This document shows, in pieces, positions 1 through 21,255 of a stretch of DNA of 32,797 nucleotides. The notes under the pieces were generated by a model. It searched no databases. It saw only the letters and a list, made by a program, of their open reading frames with translations, and was not told where the DNA came from. The stretch is from contig DYON01000003.1 of assembly GCA_020720525.1 (NCBI GenBank), forward strand, positions 8,257-41,053. The letters are read 5' to 3'. The position numbers and the translations under genes are program-made. Source of the DNA: Acetofilamentum sp. Its GTDB lineage: Bacteria; Bacteroidota; Bacteroidia; Bacteroidales; DTU049. Positions within the stretch are counted from its first letter, which is position 1, and each line of letters begins with the position of its first letter.

Positions 1-285
1 GTTACAATTACCTATCTCGATAGCGCCCGATATTTAGCAATCGACGAGCAAAAACCTACAGCAATCAGTGTTTTTCCAAATCCAGCTCAGAACTTTTTCG
101 AACTAAATGTTTCTCCCAATTTGTTCCCTTTGCAGCTTCAGATCTTCGACGCAATGGGTAGGCTGGTGCTTACTGAAACTGCAACCGAGCAGCGAATCGA
201 TGTTTCGTGGTTGCCAGCTGGTATTTATCAAATTGCACTCAGTAGCAATAGTTTTGCAGCACATGGAAAACTGATAAAACAGTAA
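1..285 (+). CDS. C-terminal fragment of a secreted protein with T9SS (Por) sorting domain; 5' end outside window
   Basis: Frame 1 is open from base 1 to TAA at 283-285: ...ISVFPNPAQNFFELNVSPNLFPLQLQIFDAMGRLVLTETATEQRIDVSWLPAGIYQIALSSNSFAAHGKLIKQ*. Matches the T9SS type A sorting domain pattern (FPNP...D..G...........L..GiY.i.......KLik). Confidence 0.85.
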   Translation, partial: VTITYLDSARYLAIDEQKPTAISVFPNPAQNFFELNVSPNLFPLQLQIFDAMGRLVLTETATEQRIDVSWLPAGIYQIALSSNSFAAHGKLIKQ

Positions 286-1120: not shown

Positions 1121-1215
1121 GGGTTTAGTCTGGTCGTAAAGCTGGGTTTAGTCTGGTCGTAAAGCTGGGTTTAGTCTCCAGACTAAACCCAACGTTCTCC
1201 CAACAGACAAAACCC
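1121..1215. repeat. Intergenic box-and-hairpin repeat element, copy 1
   Basis: GGGTTTAGTC at 1121, 1144, 1167 (first two as a 23-bp tandem unit gggtttagtctggtcgtaaagct), then reverse boxes gactaaaccc (1181-1190) and gacaaaaccc (1206-1215). Core hairpin gggtttagtct-cc-agactaaaccc at 1167-1190. Confidence 0.85.
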
Positions 1216-2354: not shown

Positions 2355-3404
2355 TTAAAAATCATCAAACAACCTACCATCGGTAATGGGGCGTTTTTTG
2401 CCCAGATGCGAATAGGCCAAAGCGGTCACTTCGCGGCCTCGTGGCGTGCGCATCATATAGCCTTGCTGAATGAGGTAGGGTTCATATACTTCTTCGATGG
2501 TTCCAGCATCTTCGCCAACCGAAGTGGCAATGGTGGTCAACCCAACCGGTCCGCCTTTAAATTTCACGATAATACTTTCCAAAATGCGAATATCCATTTC
2601 GTCGAGACCGTTTTTGTCGATATTGAGAGCGCTAAGCGCATAGTCGGTAATGGGAAGGTCGATATGTCCGTCGCCCTTTATTTGTGCAAAATCGCGAACT
2701 CGCCGAAGCAAGAGGTTGGCAATTCGGGGTGTGCCACGGCTGCGTCTTGATATTTCGGACGAAGCCTTATCGTTGATGGCAATTTTTAAAATTCCCGCCG
2801 AGCGCTCTATAATACTTTTTAGCGTTTCTGAATCGTAATAATCGAGGCGAGCATTGATGCCAAAACGCGAACGCAATGGCGCAGTAAGCAGACCGCTGCG
2901 TGTGGTTGCTCCAATTAAAGTGAAAGGATTGAGCTTAATTTGAACACTTCGAGCATTGGGACCCGATTCAATCATTATATCGATGCGGTAGTCTTCCATG
3001 GCCGAATACAAATATTCCTCTACCACCGAGCTTAAACGGTGAATTTCGTCAATGAAAAGAACGTCGTTGGGTTCGAGCGATGTGAGCAAACCTGCCAAAT
3101 CGCCTGGTTTTTCAATTACAGGTCCGCTGGTAATTTTAATGTTGACACCCATTTCGTTGGCCAAAATATGCGACAATGTTGTTTTCCCAAGTCCTGGAGG
3201 ACCATGAAGCAATGTGTGGTCGAGTGCTTCGCCACGCTTACGGGCTGCATGCACAAAAACAAGTAGGTTGTCAACTACCTGCTTTTGTCCAACAAATTCA
3301 TGAAAATCGGCAGGGCGCAGCACTTTTTCAATTTCGCGCTCCGTTGGGGTGAGACCCAGCCCTTCGGCATCTAAATTTGGATTGATTTCGCTCATCGGAG
3401 ACAA
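2355..3404 (-). CDS. ruvB: Holliday junction branch migration DNA helicase RuvB
   Basis: [57 protein letters not shown] (Walker A), [11 protein letters not shown] (Walker B), [18 protein letters not shown]; full-length RuvB pattern. Confidence 0.98.
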
Positions 3405-3506: not shown

Positions 3507-3605
3507 GGGTTTAGTCGAAAAGAAGGGCGTTGGGTTTAGTCGAAGATGGGCGTAAAGCTGGGTTTAGTCTCCAGACTAAACCCAACGCCCTTCTTCGACA
3601 AACCC
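3507..3605. repeat. Intergenic box-and-hairpin repeat element, copy 2
   Basis: GGGTTTAGTC at 3507, 3532, 3560; reverse boxes gactaaaccc (3574-3583) and gacaaaccc (3597-3605). Core gggtttagtct-cc-agactaaaccc is identical to copy 1, as is flanking cgtaaagct...aacg. Confidence 0.85.
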
Positions 3606-12979: not shown

Positions 12980-15900
12980 CTATCGAATCACCGACAACCT
13001 TCTAGTAAGCACCACCTCTTTGTATTCGAGTGTGTAGAAATAAATTCCTTGCTCGAGATTAGATGCGTCGAAATTGAAGGTGTTTTTGCCAGTTTGTCCA
13101 CTCATCTGAGTGCTCAGAATCTGCTCGCCCAGTGTGTTGCGCAACGTAATTACGCAGTTGCCTGGCTCGGGAAGCGTGAAGCTGATTTCGGTTTGTGCGG
13201 AGGTGGGGTTGGGAATGTTTTGCATCAATACAACTCCATTTTGAGTCATATCTTCAATACCAACTAAAGTAAGGTCAACACAAGTTGTATCGTTTGTTTT
13301 GTATGGGTCGCCGCTCAATAAGGTGTATGCACACAATGTGTAATCAATTGCAGGACCTGAATATGTTTGTGTGAATGTGAATGTGGCTGTGCTATCTGGA
13401 AGCAACGTTCCTGTCCAAGTTCCATTTTGAGGAGGATAACCCGTGTTCAGGCGATATGCCAATGGAATCGAATTTAAGGTGTCGGTTCCGAAGTTTTTGA
13501 TTCGAACTTGAACACTAGTCTGAACACCTGTTTGGGTTGTGCCAGTTGGAGTAATCACATCAACAATACCCGCATCAATTGCAACATTTGGAGCAAGTAT
13601 TTTGATATCGTCAATTGCAAAACCGTTGTAGGTTGTTGTGGAATTCGATTTAAAACCGAAGCGAAATTTCACACTACTGAACCCTGCAACAGCATCCAAT
13701 TTAATAAATGCAGGAGTCCATCCACCGGTATTTTTAGTCCATCCTGGTGTAGTCGAAGCATAAGAGTCGAACCAGTTGTACCCTTCCGGATCGTTGATGC
13801 CACCCAACGAAGCCCAAGTTGTTCCATTGTTGGTAGAATATTGAACATAGCCACCATCGAGATTTTCCTGAGCGTGAATCCAATAGTAAAAAGTGAGGTA
13901 GGCATCGTTAATACCAAAGAAGCTCATCGTTGGAGTGTAAATAAAACCACTAGCCGAGTTGGGATAATTCCCAGCAAGAATAGTAGCCCAAGCACTATCG
14001 GGACTGTGAGCTGTATTTATCACCGATGCTGTTGGCTTGCCATGTTGCCAAAGTGCAGGTGCATCGGTGTAAAGAATGGTTCCATCTTCTATGTCGTCTT
14101 CGAACATAGTAAATGGCGGTAGTCCATAGAATTGCGAGCACTTTTCGTCGTTGAATGTGTTCGAGTCGAGTAGTAAAACTGTTTTTACACATATATCATT
14201 CAACCCTGCAGCAACAGTTAAATCGGGTAAAGTTACAGAAGTGGTGTTGTCTGGGAATAATGTTCCAGTCCATGTGTAAGTTACAACTGGGTTGGAGTTG
14301 TGAGTATATTCAATTGGAATGGAATAAATTGTGTCGGATCCGAAGTTTTTAACGTTAACAATCACAGGAATTAATGAAGATTCTGATTGAATGTAATCGG
14401 GTTCTGTAATTGCAATCACGCCTGCATCGTTGTGCAATACTGGTGCAATTGTGATAGTGTAGTCTTCGGTCTCACCATAGTTATATGTTCCACAAGGAAG
14501 AACAGATGAGGCGGTTCCATTTTCAGTAACCACAACGCGCATTCTGGTATTGCCAATAGTAACAGTTGATGGAACAATCACAGTTCCAGTAATTGTTGCG
14601 CTTGCCAATGCTGGATAGCTACCACCAAATACTACTTCGCCTGGTTCTGCGAAAGTACCGTCTTGGTTGTAATCGATATAGACTTCGCAGTATCCAGTAT
14701 AATATGAAGCTGCATCATCAACAATAGTGACCGAAATTGGGTAGGTGCCTCCAGGAGCTATGTTTCCAGGTGCAACTGAAACAGAATAGTTTGTGTATGT
14801 ACCATTGTGAGGTGATGGAGATGTGTTGTTAATTCCTGCAAACGTTACATTGCCAAGATCTTCATCAGCAGTATATGTAGCAGCAGAAGTACAATATACC
14901 AGTGGACTATTGGTAACTGATTTATAAGCTGTATCATTTATTAGGATATTATCACTGGACAAAGTAGTGTATGCGGCAAATGAATAGGTATTATATGCCA
15001 ACAAATTTGCAGAAGTTGTAAAAGTGTAGATAGCAGTATCGCCTGGGTTAATTGGGCCAGGAATAACTTCCGAAACAGCAGCACCACCATTGATTGAATA
15101 ATTGACGGGGATATTGCTCTGTGTAGCAGTTCCAAAGTTTATCACTCTAACTGTAACACTCTCATGATTGCTTAAATCGATACCAGAATTGGGGTCGTCA
15201 ATTGCTATAACGCCAACATCTTCGGGAGGAGTTCCAGTAATAAATACTGTGTCTTCAACCACAGGCCCAGGGCAACCAGTTTTGTAAAGATTTACTTCAT
15301 CAATATACCAGCCAGTTCCCGCAACGCTACCATCCGACGAGAATGCAAAAGCAATTTCTAACTGAGTTCCACCATTAAGTGGTATTTTCCCAGAACTTAC
15401 AAAATAGGTGGTTGCGGTTCCGCCAAATGTACCAACAGTAGGTCCATAAGTGCATGACGCTAAAACTGGGTCGATGGTCAGGCTAGCTGTACCAGGATAC
15501 ACTCCAGTTGTAGGAGTGAAGTGAGTCCATGAGCCACCGTCTATCCTATAAGCCACTAGACCTCTATCGCAACAGTTTTCTGTATCATAACGATGTCTAA
15601 AACTTAAATCAATGCTATCACCAAAAACAGATAGTACTGGAGAAAATAATGCAGCGCTAGACTCATAATCTGGGTCTTCCATATAAGCAGTGCCTGCACC
15701 GGCATCGCTAGCCCAAGTCCAGTTGTAGGTTGTGTAACTAACGCAAGGAGTAGTAGCAGTCCAACCTTGCAAGTCGGTATCGAAAGTATAGTTGTATTCA
15801 AGCTCAGATGTGGATGCAACATAATAAATTGTGGTGTCAAACAATACTGGAGTTGTAAAAGAAGAACCTGTTTGCAAAAGTGTTGTAAGGGTTGCATCTG

Positions 15901-18900
15901 CATACCACTGAATGGTGTCGGCACTTGTTGCATTGAGTGTTGTTGAAGTTGCATATGGAATAGTTGCGTTAGTTACGCTAACTGTGCCTGGTGAATGCCG
16001 CGAAATTAAATTGAAATGAGCTGTATCGTTGAGCTGCAATGGATCGCCAGTTAATTCTAAGTAATAGGTAAAATGGAATAAACTGTCGATAGCACCAACT
16101 ATCATATTAACAGGAGTACTAAAAGTGAAAATAGCTGTATCGCCCGAAGGAATTATGTTAGGCACAGATTCAGAAACTGGAGTTTGACCATTTACAACAT
16201 AATATGCAGTAAGGTTTCCATTTATGGTGTCGGTACCATTGTTCAATATAGCAATACTGATTGGTTCAATGCCGAGGCTACATCCACCAGATGGAGTAAC
16301 ACCATACAAAAGAGCTGCCTCTTGCGCAGGCGCAGCGAATTCATCGGCTCCAATATCGGGAGTTGTTAAACTACGAATATCACTATCAATGTCATCGGTT
16401 ACAGATGCCAAAGGTGTTCCCTGATTATCTAAGGCAAGCGAAATGGAATGTAAATCGGTGTTAGAGAAAAATGAAGGGTAAACACTTACAGAGTTACTGT
16501 CTTTCAAAGTTGCGGCAACCCATGCAGATAGATTGGTTCTGTTAGCAGAATTATAATAACCAAGGTTCGTTCCAGTTGTGAACAGATTGTTGTAATCTGA
16601 TGTCAAACTTGTAGATGCGCTGTAAAAAGCATAACCACCACCATTGTTTGCAAATATATTATTGCGGAAATTGAAATTGTTGCTGTAATAATAATACATC
16701 GACCGACCATCGATTGTGCTTGTACTAAAACAGTTTACACTATTGTTGTAAATATTGTAATAGTTGCTGTAGTAAGCATACAAACCATAGGCTGTTGCTC
16801 CACCTCCAATGCTGATAAAATTATTGGCTATTTGTCCCTGAGTTGTAGCATCTCCATCGCAATAATACAAATAGAGCCCATAATACGTTGGATTGTTGAT
16901 TTTGTTTTTCTCAATGATCGAGTAATCACAGTAATTCAAGTAGAGTCCAGTAGAATAGGCGTATGTGGTGTTGGAATTTAGGTTATTTTCGCTAATTCTG
17001 AGATTTTTTTGGTTGTATGTGTAAATACCCGCAAAGTAGTAATTATTGAAATTGTTATTCTCAATCACGTTACCATTTTCCAATACAGTCGAAGATGTTC
17101 CATACATGTAAAGTGAATATGATCCATTGTTAAATGTGTTGTTTTTGATAACAATGTTGCTGTCGTTCGAAGAGCCAACATTATAAAAAAGGGCTTTATC
17201 AGATGAAGTGGATATGCTTACTGTGGGATTGGTGAAAATATTTCCTTCAAAAAGAATATTATTCGAATTGCCTTGTATAGAGACACATCTACTGTATGTC
17301 AATCCTTGGGCTAAGAATGTCATGTTTTTAAATTCCATGAATTTTGCACCTGCGAGACTTACAATGTAGTTCGAGCCAGAAGTAGTTGCAGAATCGCGCA
17401 AAACAACATCGGTAGCAATACCAGTGCTGCTTTGGAAAACAATACTAGCGTTGAGTCCATTGCCAGGGATTGCTCCACTAAAAGTCAACAAAGTATCGTA
17501 TGTACCCGAAGCAATTTCGAATATTGTTGTATCGCTGATACCACAGCTGTTGAGCTGAGCAATAACATCGGCAAAATATTGGAAATTTGTTCCGCCTGTT
17601 GGAACCAATGGGTCTATGGTATAAGTTCCAGATAGAACAGTGATACATGAAAAATAGGCTTCACTCAATGTATCGTTGATATTGTTGGGGTCAACTGAAT
17701 CGTTAGGCAGAGACGTCCAAACTGTTATGTTGTGTGTTCCAGCAGTTGGAAATGTTACTGTTCCGACAATAATATTCGATGAAATAGAATCTGGAAGCAA
17801 AGAGCCAGTAAAAGCAAAAGGTGTTTGAGCAACTCCATCTAGTTTCCACTCAATATTCGCTTTGGTGATTGTGTCGGTTCCATAATTCTTTATTTTCACT
17901 GTCATGTTGTATGGTGTTCCAACAACCGGCGCTGGCGATGTGGCTGGTTCAATTATAGCATACACTCCGGCATCTTCAGCTGCAGGAGTGTATTCGTCGG
18001 CTCCCATGTCGGGGCTGAAAAGGCTTCTAACCTGGTTGTCGATGTCATCAATAATTCCAACTGGAGCTCCTAAGTCGTTTAGAGCTGTCAATGTGGTGTG
18101 AAGATCTGTAGTTGATTGGAATTGAGGATTTATGCTCACCGAATTAGCATCCTGCGATGTCGCTGTTTGCCATGCTGATAAATCGGCACTGTTTGCTGAA
18201 TTATAATAGCCAAGGTTCGTTCCAGTTGTGAACAGATTGTTGTAATCTGATGTCAAACTTGTAGATGCGCTGTAAAAAGCATAACCACCTCCAGTGTTAG
18301 CAAATATATTGTTGTTTATTTTGCAATTGTTGGCGTAATAATAATAGAATGAGCTTCCTCCCGTTGTACTCGTACTGCTACAATTAATACTGTTGTGGTA
18401 GAAATTGAAATAGTTTGAATAATATGCATAAATACCGTAAGCAGTTGTTATTCCTCCAACGCTAATAAAGTTGTTCGAAATCGCACCTTGTGTAGTTGCA
18501 TCGCCATCTGAATAATTTAAATACAAGCCATAATACGTGGGTTGCACTATTTTATTTTTATTGATTTGAGCATAATCGCAATAGTTTAGACTCATTCCAA
18601 TTGTTGAAGCGTAGGTTGTGTTGGTAGATAAGATGTTTTTCTTTATTTGCAAGTTTTTCTGATAGTATGCATACAGACCTGAAGTATAATAATTTGAAAA
18701 TGTATTACCTTCAATAAGATTTCCGTTTTCCAGAGTTGTTGAATTAGTACCATACATATAAACACCATACGAACCGTTGGTAAATGTGTTGTTTATAATC
18801 ACAATGTTGCTATCAATCGACGCGCTGTAGTTGTGAATCAAAGCCATGTCGGTGCTGGTTGATGTTGCAACTGGTCCTTTTATGATATTTCCTTCAATCA

Positions 18901-21085
18901 AAATGTTGTTCGAATTGTTTCTGAGGGAAAAACATTTGCCGTAAGTAGAACTTAACGACTGAAAAGTCATATTGCGGAAAGCAAGGAATTTAGCGCCATT
19001 AATGTCAATGATGTAGTTGTTGCCCGTACTTGCTGCATTGTTGCGCAAGGTTACGTCGCTTGCATTTCCCGATGCAGATTGGAATGTTACGGGTGCTGAT
19101 ATTCCAATGCCAGGAATTGTTGCAGGGAACGATAACAAGGTGTCATAAATACCACTTGCAATCTGAAATACTGTGGTATCACTAACTCCACAATTTTTTA
19201 ATACATTCATAGCATCAGTAAAGCCTTGAAAGTTAGTTCCTCCTGTTGGAGTTATTGGGTCTATAGTGTAATTGCCAGCTAAAACCGATGTGCATGCAAA
19301 ATAGCTCTTACTTGTAGTGTCATTCAATGGTTGTTCATCTACAAAACCATCTGGATTGCTTGTCCATACTTTAATATTGTTGGAACCAGTGTTTATAAAT
19401 GTTACAGAGCCAATGTTGATTTCATTCGAAATCTGGTCTTGAAGCAACATTCCTGTCCAAGCGTATGGAGTTTGTGCTATGCCATTGAGCTCCCAATTTA
19501 TGGTAATGCCAGTAAGTGTATCGGAGCCAATATTCCTAATCTTCACCTTTGTGTTGTAAGGTGTTCCAACAATTGGAATAGGACTACTAAAAGGCTCAGT
19601 AATTTGTATTGCTGCTGCATCGTGTACAGTATTGCTGGGTTGAAATGCAATTTTCAAATTGGGCCTTGTTGTAGTGAGAGTTCCAGTTGATGATGGAAAA
19701 ACACTGGAGTATGTATTGCTATACACATATTTAGCTTTATTTGCTACTGGAGTAGCTGTATATTTGAAAGTAGGATACCCTGAAGAGTAACTTCCATCTC
19801 GATTTATCCAATAAATAAGTAAATGACCTAAACCACTATAATAAAAAGAGGTAGTTGGAATAAATTTGAACCAACCTGTTCCGTTCCAAGTAACATTGCC
19901 AGCAAAAAAAGTGGTCATGCTTGTACTATCGGGCATAACTCCGCTGGCAAATGTTGAGTCTGCCACAATGGCTATCATCATTCGTTGATTGGTCATAATA
20001 TAGTTTGAAACACTATTGCCAATTTGGAAAAATAAGGAATCAATAATGCCTGATGTCCCAATTTCGGAAGCGGTGTAAACCTGAGCACTCCAACCATAAT
20101 TGTAATATCCATAGCATGGCAGGTAATACTCTGTGCTTGTTCCCGTTCCAATAATTACAACAGGAGCTGGCTGTTTAGTATAAAACCATTTGGTCGTTGT
20201 ACTTCCAATATTGGAAGCTGCCGAAGCATCTTTTGCGACAATAAAATAATCAATATGCATATTGTATGCTTGAGCAGGAATAAATGTGCTAAAGGTATCG
20301 GCTGCGAGAACTGTCATGCCAATAGTGTCGTTTAAACCACCATTTAGTGAATATACTACATAAGCTGTGTCAATTCCAGATAAATCGCTTATTTTTGCTT
20401 TTACTTGAAATGGACCTGTGGCATAAACTGTGTCTTGCCAAATTGTAGGAATTTGAGTAATAGTCGGTGGAGTAAGTTCGGATGGAGCAATGGTAACTTT
20501 AATATCGTCGAGAAACCAACCAACGCGCTGGTTTGAGCCGTTGTTGTTGCCATCGCTTAGCTTGAAGCGAATAATCACACTCGCCAGATTGCCCAAAACA
20601 GCACCAAGGTCGAATTGTTCCGTCTTCCACCACGTGTTGGTTGGAACAACAGCTGCAACTCCTGCTTGCCAATCGGCAGAATAGCTTTGTTCGGTAAATT
20701 TCGAACTTGTATAGCCACCGCTACCTAAATAATACGTTGCTGCAATGGCTGTCCATGTACCTCCTCCATCGGTGGAGTATTCAATCTGAGCAGCATCGAA
20801 AAATTCAATTTTACATATTTGTTTGAACTCAAGCAAAACACTAGAGTTGCCCAAAGTACTAAATGCATTCGATGTTAAGTACGAAGTAGATGATAATCCA
20901 ACATAGCAACTGTCGGAATATGAACCCGAAACATGCACTCGAGAATTGATGCCCCAAGTTGGAGTTCCACTGGCGGTGAATTCGTAAGGTCCTGATTCGA
21001 AGTCTTCGTTGAAAACAATAGTCTGTGCAGCTACTGTTCCCGTCAACAGAAAGGCTGCAAAAGCAAACAGAAAAAGATTTTTCAT
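12980..21085 (-). CDS. Giant secreted multidomain T9SS cargo protein (parallel beta-helix x2, CARDB-like repeats, GEVED domain, adhesin/MAM-like modules)
   Basis: Start MKNLFLFAFAAFLLTGTVAAQ (ATG at 21085); FNEDFESG and MFEDDIEDG jelly-roll modules; two NosD-like beta-helix blocks; GEVED segment CEVYIDYNQDGTFAEPGEVVFGGSY...CGTYNYGETEDYTI; C-terminal IPNPTSAQTEISFTLPEPGNCVITLRNTLGEQILS...LEQGIYFYTLEYKEVVLTRRLSVIR sorting signal. Confidence 0.92.
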   Translation of the reverse strand: MKNLFLFAFAAFLLTGTVAAQTIVFNEDFESGPYEFTASGTPTWGINSRVHVSGSYSDSCYVGLSSTSYLTSNAFSTLGNSSVLLEFKQICKIEFFDAAQIEYSTDGGGTWTAIAATYYLGSGGYTSSKFTEQSYSADWQAGVAAVVPTNTWWKTEQFDLGAVLGNLASVIIRFKLSDGNNNGSNQRVGWFLDDIKVTIAPSELTPPTITQIPTIWQDTVYATGPFQVKAKISDLSGIDTAYVVYSLNGGLNDTIGMTVLAADTFSTFIPAQAYNMHIDYFIVAKDASAASNIGSTTTKWFYTKQPAPVVIIGTGTSTEYYLPCYGYYNYGWSAQVYTASEIGTSGIIDSLFFQIGNSVSNYIMTNQRMMIAIVADSTFASGVMPDSTSMTTFFAGNVTWNGTGWFKFIPTTSFYYSGLGHLLIYWINRDGSYSSGYPTFKYTATPVANKAKYVYSNTYSSVFPSSTGTLTTTRPNLKIAFQPSNTVHDAAAIQITEPFSSPIPIVGTPYNTKVKIRNIGSDTLTGITINWELNGIAQTPYAWTGMLLQDQISNEINIGSVTFINTGSNNIKVWTSNPDGFVDEQPLNDTTSKSYFACTSVLAGNYTIDPITPTGGTNFQGFTDAMNVLKNCGVSDTTVFQIASGIYDTLLSFPATIPGIGISAPVTFQSASGNASDVTLRNNAASTGNNYIIDINGAKFLAFRNMTFQSLSSTYGKCFSLRNNSNNILIEGNIIKGPVATSTSTDMALIHNYSASIDSNIVIINNTFTNGSYGVYMYGTNSTTLENGNLIEGNTFSNYYTSGLYAYYQKNLQIKKNILSTNTTYASTIGMSLNYCDYAQINKNKIVQPTYYGLYLNYSDGDATTQGAISNNFISVGGITTAYGIYAYYSNYFNFYHNSINCSSTSTTGGSSFYYYYANNCKINNNIFANTGGGYAFYSASTSLTSDYNNLFTTGTNLGYYNSANSADLSAWQTATSQDANSVSINPQFQSTTDLHTTLTALNDLGAPVGIIDDIDNQVRSLFSPDMGADEYTPAAEDAGVYAIIEPATSPAPVVGTPYNMTVKIKNYGTDTITKANIEWKLDGVAQTPFAFTGSLLPDSISSNIIVGTVTFPTAGTHNITVWTSLPNDSVDPNNINDTLSEAYFSCITVLSGTYTIDPLVPTGGTNFQYFADVIAQLNSCGISDTTIFEIASGTYDTLLTFSGAIPGNGLNASIVFQSSTGIATDVVLRDSATTSGSNYIVSLAGAKFMEFKNMTFLAQGLTYSRCVSIQGNSNNILFEGNIFTNPTVSISTSSDKALFYNVGSSNDSNIVIKNNTFNNGSYSLYMYGTSSTVLENGNVIENNNFNNYYFAGIYTYNQKNLRISENNLNSNTTYAYSTGLYLNYCDYSIIEKNKINNPTYYGLYLYYCDGDATTQGQIANNFISIGGGATAYGLYAYYSNYYNIYNNSVNCFSTSTIDGRSMYYYYSNNFNFRNNIFANNGGGYAFYSASTSLTSDYNNLFTTGTNLGYYNSANRTNLSAWVAATLKDSNSVSVYPSFFSNTDLHSISLALDNQGTPLASVTDDIDSDIRSLTTPDIGADEFAAPAQEAALLYGVTPSGGCSLGIEPISIAILNNGTDTINGNLTAYYVVNGQTPVSESVPNIIPSGDTAIFTFSTPVNMIVGAIDSLFHFTYYLELTGDPLQLNDTAHFNLISRHSPGTVSVTNATIPYATSTTLNATSADTIQWYADATLTTLLQTGSSFTTPVLFDTTIYYVASTSELEYNYTFDTDLQGWTATTPCVSYTTYNWTWASDAGAGTAYMEDPDYESSAALFSPVLSVFGDSIDLSFRHRYDTENCCDRGLVAYRIDGGSWTHFTPTTGVYPGTASLTIDPVLASCTYGPTVGTFGGTATTYFVSSGKIPLNGGTQLEIAFAFSSDGSVAGTGWYIDEVNLYKTGCPGPVVEDTVFITGTPPEDVGVIAIDDPNSGIDLSNHESVTVRVINFGTATQSNIPVNYSINGGAAVSEVIPGPINPGDTAIYTFTTSANLLAYNTYSFAAYTTLSSDNILINDTAYKSVTNSPLVYCTSAATYTADEDLGNVTFAGINNTSPSPHNGTYTNYSVSVAPGNIAPGGTYPISVTIVDDAASYYTGYCEVYIDYNQDGTFAEPGEVVFGGSYPALASATITGTVIVPSTVTIGNTRMRVVVTENGTASSVLPCGTYNYGETEDYTITIAPVLHNDAGVIAITEPDYIQSESSLIPVIVNVKNFGSDTIYSIPIEYTHNSNPVVTYTWTGTLFPDNTTSVTLPDLTVAAGLNDICVKTVLLLDSNTFNDEKCSQFYGLPPFTMFEDDIEDGTILYTDAPALWQHGKPTASVINTAHSPDSAWATILAGNYPNSASGFIYTPTMSFFGINDAYLTFYYWIHAQENLDGGYVQYSTNNGTTWASLGGINDPEGYNWFDSYASTTPGWTKNTGGWTPAFIKLDAVAGFSSVKFRFGFKSNSTTTYNGFAIDDIKILAPNVAIDAGIVDVITPTGTTQTGVQTSVQVRIKNFGTDTLNSIPLAYRLNTGYPPQNGTWTGTLLPDSTATFTFTQTYSGPAIDYTLCAYTLLSGDPYKTNDTTCVDLTLVGIEDMTQNGVVLMQNIPNPTSAQTEISFTLPEPGNCVITLRNTLGEQILSTQMSGQTGKNTFNFDASNLEQGIYFYTLEYKEVVLTRRLSVIR
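16320..17962 (-). repeat. Internal duplication, copy B (CARDB-like + beta-helix + DIGADEF), about 1650 bp
   Basis: IIEPATSPAPVVGTPYNMTVKIKNYGTDTITK...TYTIDPLVPTGGTNFQ...DGDATTQGQIANNFISIGG...YAFYSASTSLTSDYNNLFTTGTNLGYYNSAN...PDIGADEF parallels copy A module by module. Boundaries approximate. Confidence 0.85.
17975..19615 (-). repeat. Internal duplication, copy A (CARDB-like + beta-helix + DMGADEY), about 1650 bp
   Basis: ITEPFSSPIPIVGTPYNTKVKIRNIGSDTLTG...NYTIDPITPTGGTNFQ...DGDATTQGAISNNFISVGG...YAFYSASTSLTSDYNNLFTTGTNLGYYNSAN...PDMGADEY. Matching bases lie 1650 bp apart (e.g. 16561 vs 18211). Boundaries approximate. Confidence 0.85.
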
Positions 21086-21117
21086 CTTAAATTGATTATT
21101 TATTAATTTTTGTGAAA

Positions 21118-21125
21118 CAAAGATA
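21118..21125 (-). promoter_or_regulatory. Putative -7 box (TATCTTTG) of the giant T9SS gene
   Basis: Minus strand TATCTTTG, 32 nt upstream of the ATG at 21085, supporting the internal start over the ORF-track start at 21133. Confidence 0.45.
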
Positions 21126-21255
21126 CACAACATTAGACAATTAAACGTTACAAACGTTGTTTTATGTTTTACTATTTTTTAAAAAAAACGACATAGCAGG
21201 TTAAATATCTCTTCAAAATGACATTATTCGTTGTATTTTTGTGCAAAATATTTTG

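Follow-up and report, generated by a model that had tools for sequence, protein, structure and literature searches.

The window analysed here, the whole 32,797-nt stretch of an Acetofilamentum sp. contig, carries at two places a row of short boxes in forward and reverse orientation arranged around a hairpin, which raises the question of what kind of element these two copies represent and what might move it. We conclude that the repeat is genuine: a small DNA element built as a nested palindrome, low in copy number and associated with a REP-associated tyrosine transposase (RAYT). The two copies are composed as follows:

1121-1215, plus strand: element copy 1, with boxes at 1121, 1144 and 1167 (plus), at 1181 (minus) and a degenerate one at 1206 (minus)
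1206-1215, minus strand: outer reverse box of copy 1, degenerate (gacaaaaccc)
3507-3605, plus strand: element copy 2, with three forward boxes, a hairpin and two reverse boxes
3507-3516, plus strand: forward box F1 of copy 2, GGGTTTAGTC, whose partner in the minimum-energy fold is the outer reverse box
3520-3541, plus strand: F2 of copy 2 with its flank, a perfect 22-bp complement of 3574-3595
3532-3541, plus strand: second forward box of copy 2
3560-3569, plus strand: third forward box of copy 2
3560-3583, no strand assigned: apical hairpin of copy 2, GGGTTTAGTC-TCCA-GACTAAACCC
3574-3583, minus strand: inner reverse box of copy 2
3597-3605, minus strand: outer reverse box of copy 2, degenerate (gacaaaccc)

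The order of the boxes, the core, the degenerate outer box and the spacings (box starts 25, 28, 14 and 23 nt apart in copy 2, and 23, 23, 14 and 25 nt apart in copy 1, where a 23-nt box-plus-spacer unit stands in tandem) had been described in an earlier note on this DNA and are correct to the base. Its proposal that boxes and core are constrained while the spacers drift also holds, the 41-nt core being 98% identical in the two copies and the spacings differing between them; the pairing it had seen through the spacers of copy 2 is real, the better register being the 22-bp one listed above. Allowing at most one mismatch, GGGTTTAGTC occurs at 9 sites in the window, with 1.1 expected and as many as 9 reached in 0 of 100 shuffles, and when folded as single-stranded DNA the two copies have z-scores of -9.4 (copy 1) and -9.1 (copy 2), with 0 of 200 shuffles as good. 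Alternative pairing registers exist for the forward boxes of both copies, and each can be taken as a nested palindrome in which one forward box is in surplus. Elsewhere in the window, positions 1-282 (plus strand) encode the T9SS type A sorting domain (TIGR04183, 45.7 bits against a cutoff of 23) at the C-terminus of a protein whose start lies beyond the window; this domain, with the Bacteroidota relatives of the hairpin described below, points to a host in Bacteroidota. A 2717-aa reading frame at 12980-21133 (minus strand) overlaps several internal DNA repeat families, some of whose pairs lie 84 nt apart.

How widespread is the element? The earlier note had read the two copies as a dispersed palindromic element, which stands, and as members of a high-copy family, which finds no support in the window's own genome, although the congener G002 has about 17 strong copies. 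In the 3.02-Mb assembly the hairpin has two exact matches, both of them in the window, and GTAAAGCTGGG is likewise confined to these two copies. A relaxed pattern adds one hairpin on C18 and one on C539, and the tally is three full elements (the two window copies and the C539 variant) plus two variant hairpins flanking a RAYT gene, in an assembly of 548 contigs in which a run of N adjoins the C539 array and from which copies may be missing. Three further isolated GGGTTTAGTC sites lack partner boxes and are consistent with chance, and a literature search for the box returned nothing of apparent relevance among the matches listed, judged by title and abstract.

In G002 the relatives are built regularly: (ggYt)GGGCGTAGTC is separated by a mostly AT-rich spacer of about 15 nt from (gct)GGGNNNAGTC, after which come a loop, usually TCCA or TGGA, and the same parts mirrored. 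The whole measures about 86 nt, and each copy is a nested palindrome F1-F2-loop-R2-R1. A covariance model trained on nine of these copies finds 17 strong loci in G002, namely the nine training copies and eight further ones. Outside G002 it recovers the two copies of the window, with E-values of 2e-8 and 2.4e-5, as well as the C539 element and a single locus in a second congener, G001; in nine other genomes of the host's family it finds no loci. The arms bear the compensatory changes that the earlier note had proposed looking for: several stem positions have changed on both sides, and covariation over the stem of the nine aligned G002 copies is 0.159, compared with 0.076 in shuffled alignments (0 of 500) and at most 0.043 in slid controls, the latter, together with the variety of pair types, weighing more because shuffle tests are inflated by relatedness among the copies. 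In an alignment of 20 elements, 464 of 496 stem cells are paired, a count that leans towards structure because the alignment was fitted to it; L025 was left out of the pair-count alignment, in which MAFFT had shifted its inner box by one base, and returns as L200 among the 20. In the G002 elements L178-L200 the complementarity of the outer stem extends over up to 8 flanking bases, with a sequence that varies among the copies, as if the elements had entered palindromic sites or one arm had been rewritten from the other. At L076 (G002:C2:20515-21176) the outer boxes stand about 260 bp apart and enclose repeat-like gcgacgaaggag...ggacatggaacc. Similar sequence lies close to other elements of G002 as well, and the enclosed stretch is possibly a second repeat family that has inserted there.

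Both the length of the box array and the presence of the element differ between congeners. The C539 element consists of a hairpin followed by three more reverse boxes with a 28-nt period, and its G001 ortholog (L086) has one further reverse box, so that array length differs between the species at this orthologous locus; at L121, which holds a RAYT gene of another genome of the order, successive half-boxes likewise follow a hairpin. In G001 the syntenic interval spanning the lipoprotein gene, ruvB and etfB (EtfB 96% identical) lacks both window copies; it was the sole syntenic interval obtained at the etfB locus, and since the intervals hold other sequence this is a presence/absence difference and not a clean empty site. 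Further afield, the exact pattern gives nine stretches across 85,462 species genomes, six of them in Bacteroidota, some of which bear further boxes (L093 in Dyadobacter, L097 in Bacteroidales); the remainder may be chance. In L093 (Dyadobacter diqingensis, 3087-3210), from a distant Bacteroidota genome, a GGGCGTAGTC hairpin is followed by several degenerate boxes and resembles the half-box arrays. The strict hairpin pattern is nearly missing from the order, with 2 of 295 genomes, which points either to a fast turnover of box sequences or to an over-strict pattern.

Which enzyme, then, could act on these elements? The REP-associated transposase with matching ends for which the earlier note had suggested searching is encoded in the window's own genome, on C18. 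Its 180-aa product passes the NCBIfam equivalog model REP_Tyr_transpos (NF047646; 100.9 bits, cutoff 80), falls below the cutoff of the IS200 model and, compared by sequence with solved structures, gives weak matches to IS200-type transposases and to E. coli TnpAREP (4er8). On either side of the gene stand AGGCTTAGTCtggaggaGACTAAGCCT and GGCGTAGTCtccaGACTACGCC, both of them parts of longer stems, and the boxes of the two flanking hairpins are AGGCTTAGTC on one side and GGCGTAGTC on the other, unlike those of the window copies (GGGTTTAGTC). The G001 ortholog, which adjoins the same DEAD-box helicase gene, is also flanked by family hairpins, one of them without its apex. Among 14 Y1-transposase loci of the genus scanned for the boxes, the C18 RAYT and this ortholog are the only ones with family hairpins on their flanks; none of the three in G002 is flanked by these boxes. 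The cognate gene of G002 may have been lost or may lie in unassembled sequence, or another enzyme may act in trans. Near-identical hairpins with stems of 14-15 bp, AACCCTCACAGGGTTT(T/A)AAACCCTGTGAGGGTT, lie in both G000 (the window's own genome; L109, C495) and G001 (L113, C108), near the gene of a Y1-like protein of a second type, which has a weak PF01797 match.

Homologs of the C18 RAYT at E <= 1e-15 are present in 68 of 295 genomes of the order, and across the order these genes are strongly enriched for adjacent short hairpins. The 32 loci compared, a non-random sample, were the best-scoring matches with stored loci plus the G001 and G002 genes. Enrichment appears in all three settings that were quantified: (i) with stems of at least 8 within 300 bp, at 21 full loci, the 12.6 kb near the gene hold 23 hairpins and the 37.8 kb far from it 6, or by locus 12 of 21 RAYT loci versus 2 of 42 control windows; (ii) with stems of at least 7 and loops of 3-7 within 350 bp, 97 near versus 17 far (21.7 versus 49.4 kb); and (iii) with loops of 3-4, 90 hairpins in 21.7 kb near versus 8 in 49.4 kb far, at least one being found at 30 of the 32 loci. 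Locus counts are the safer figures because hairpins within one array are not independent, and part of the excess could be explained by the near hairpins being mainly intergenic and the far controls more coding. The arm pattern tried first, GCNNAR, fits 21 of 97 near and 2 of 17 far hairpins, and CNNAGNN fits 46 of 90 near and 2 of 8 far, at 19 of 32 loci; CNNAGNN was picked after the arms had been inspected, so neither set of counts is an independent test. At L143 (G076:C596) the RAYT gene is immediately preceded by a series of hairpins GTTTCGGATTtgcAATCCGAAAC, one about every 30 nt.

Since relatives of the window copies flank the gene of a domesticated single-strand transposase in the same genome, the two copies are most likely a low-copy Bacteroidota version of the REP elements that such transposases would spread. 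The association of element and RAYT is well supported, and we consider it probable that the window copies are REP-like non-autonomous palindromes cognate to the C18 protein, a domesticated transposase of the IS200/IS605 type (RAYT/TnpAREP, similar to subclass 2.6). That this RAYT mobilises the elements is our leading inference, and it would bind and cleave them. In the unit an outer pair of boxes encloses the spacers and an inner pair, whose loop measures about 4 nt. On an exposed strand, such as the lagging-strand template, it would fold into a long nested hairpin, which the HUH/Y1 enzyme may recognise, cut beside and help to excise or copy into intergenic sites, while duplication or loss of the box-plus-spacer unit could give arms of three or four boxes. 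What speaks most against this reading is that in G002, where copies are most numerous, no RAYT is flanked by the boxes; the difference between the window boxes and those beside the C18 gene, and the occupied intervals of G001, also count against it.

A different history, in which a RAYT spread the elements in the past but they have since become immobile and are decaying, the present RAYT being inactive on them, is possible although we think it rather unlikely. It would account for the many G002 copies without a cognate RAYT, the apex or loop deletions in some copies (L079, L081), the few copies in the window's own genome and the difference between window boxes and RAYT-adjacent boxes, and it keeps its standing mainly because no Y1 gene of G002 is box-flanked. 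Against such decay, the RAYT reading frame is intact in both G000 and G001 at their shared locus, with 86.7% DNA identity and hairpins on both sides, and the G002 stems are still mostly paired through compensatory changes, though copies may descend from different paired sources.

Conserved pairing would equally be expected if the hairpins were kept for a role in transcripts, as terminators, in mRNA stability or in protein binding, with the link to the RAYT incidental; the elements lie mostly outside reading frames (13 of the 15 checked overlap no ORF of at least 100 aa) and several stand between convergent genes. The stems are near-palindromic, and pairing therefore cannot show which strand matters, or whether it does so as DNA or RNA. 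Nevertheless, we hold such a role to be improbable: neither window hairpin is followed by a T-run, no Rfam family matches the element, and gene context is not conserved, copy 1 lying between convergent genes and copy 2 between the divergent ruvB and etfB. A terminator scan of the window listed neither copy, only a separate terminator at 1032-1062 and a weak site at 1380-1396, and an intrinsic terminator in the sense of a GC-rich hairpin with a T-run is rejected for both. An integron attC (RYYYAAC 5', GTTRRRY 3') was likewise discarded: some boxes fit GTTGGGT/ACCCAAC, but the other way round, and there are also boxes that have GCTGGGT instead. A MITE of a DDE transposase, with the outer boxes as terminal inverted repeats, is very unlikely, for although the G002 copies are constant in length (near 86 nt) and have outer inverted repeats, no common short direct repeat is evident, by eye, around the aligned copies, and the matching hairpins flank a Y1 gene, not a DDE one.

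How does a RAYT-cognate REP-like element compare with the systems already described? Canonical REPs often exceed 100 copies per genome, a number that neither G002 nor the window's own genome, with its three full elements and RAYT-flanking pair, reaches. Like canonical REPs and REPINs, which combine a GTAG foot with a RAYT (PMC2817692, PMC3116915), these are short palindromes in extragenic DNA, arranged as inverted doublets, and in the window's own genome, as in G001, the RAYT stands between two palindromes of one family, as in a REPtron. Unlike the canonical elements (PMC2817692, PMC3116915), (i) no GT[AG]G stands at the hairpin foot of either window copy, read directly, GTAG occurring within the arm and not at the foot in G002 elements and at the C18 RAYT; (ii) the half-palindrome boxes are nested; and (iii) copies are few in the window's own genome. 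With foot tetranucleotide and high copy number both lacking, the element is an atypical REP of the subclass 2.6 kind and not a canonical one. The repeats of TIRYTs (PMC3733652) are also similar, in that tyrosine transposase genes are flanked by non-GTAG repeats, some of them double-palindromic and repeated in the genome; here, by description, each side of the RAYT is instead a hairpin of a dispersed family.

The closest match is subclass 2.6 of TnpAREP, to which, according to the main text of a 2018 survey (PMC6006769), most Bacteroidetes RAYTs belong, with proteins of ~179 aa bearing the motifs NH[LIV]H, WQ and YIH[QN]NP and with flanking structures that lack GT[AG]G, were found by manual inspection and have copies elsewhere in the genome. 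The present system shares a Bacteroidetes RAYT of nearly the same length (180 aa), the non-GT[AG]G flanking structures and the copies elsewhere; NHIH fits, and WSQ and YIHKNP each depart by one residue. The nested four-box anatomy, the covariation and the tandem half-box arrays go beyond that main text, against which the novelty of the nested anatomy is provisionally judged. We propose, tentatively, that Bacteroidota RAYTs of the C18 clade might recognise a class of substrates other than GTAG REPs, composed of nested palindromes together with arrays of tandem half-boxes. The enzyme would read them through the arm near the apex, often CNNAGNN with a loop of 3-4 nt, and this arm would change along with each RAYT. 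Where the survey's main text leaves the Bacteroidetes RAYT-adjacent elements as 'atypical secondary structures' (PMC6006769), the anatomy of one such family is now described and captured in a covariance model, with copies known from three congeners, a candidate for the cognate gene within the window's own genome and an order-wide pattern beside related RAYTs, so that recognition of non-GTAG substrates becomes directly testable in vitro.
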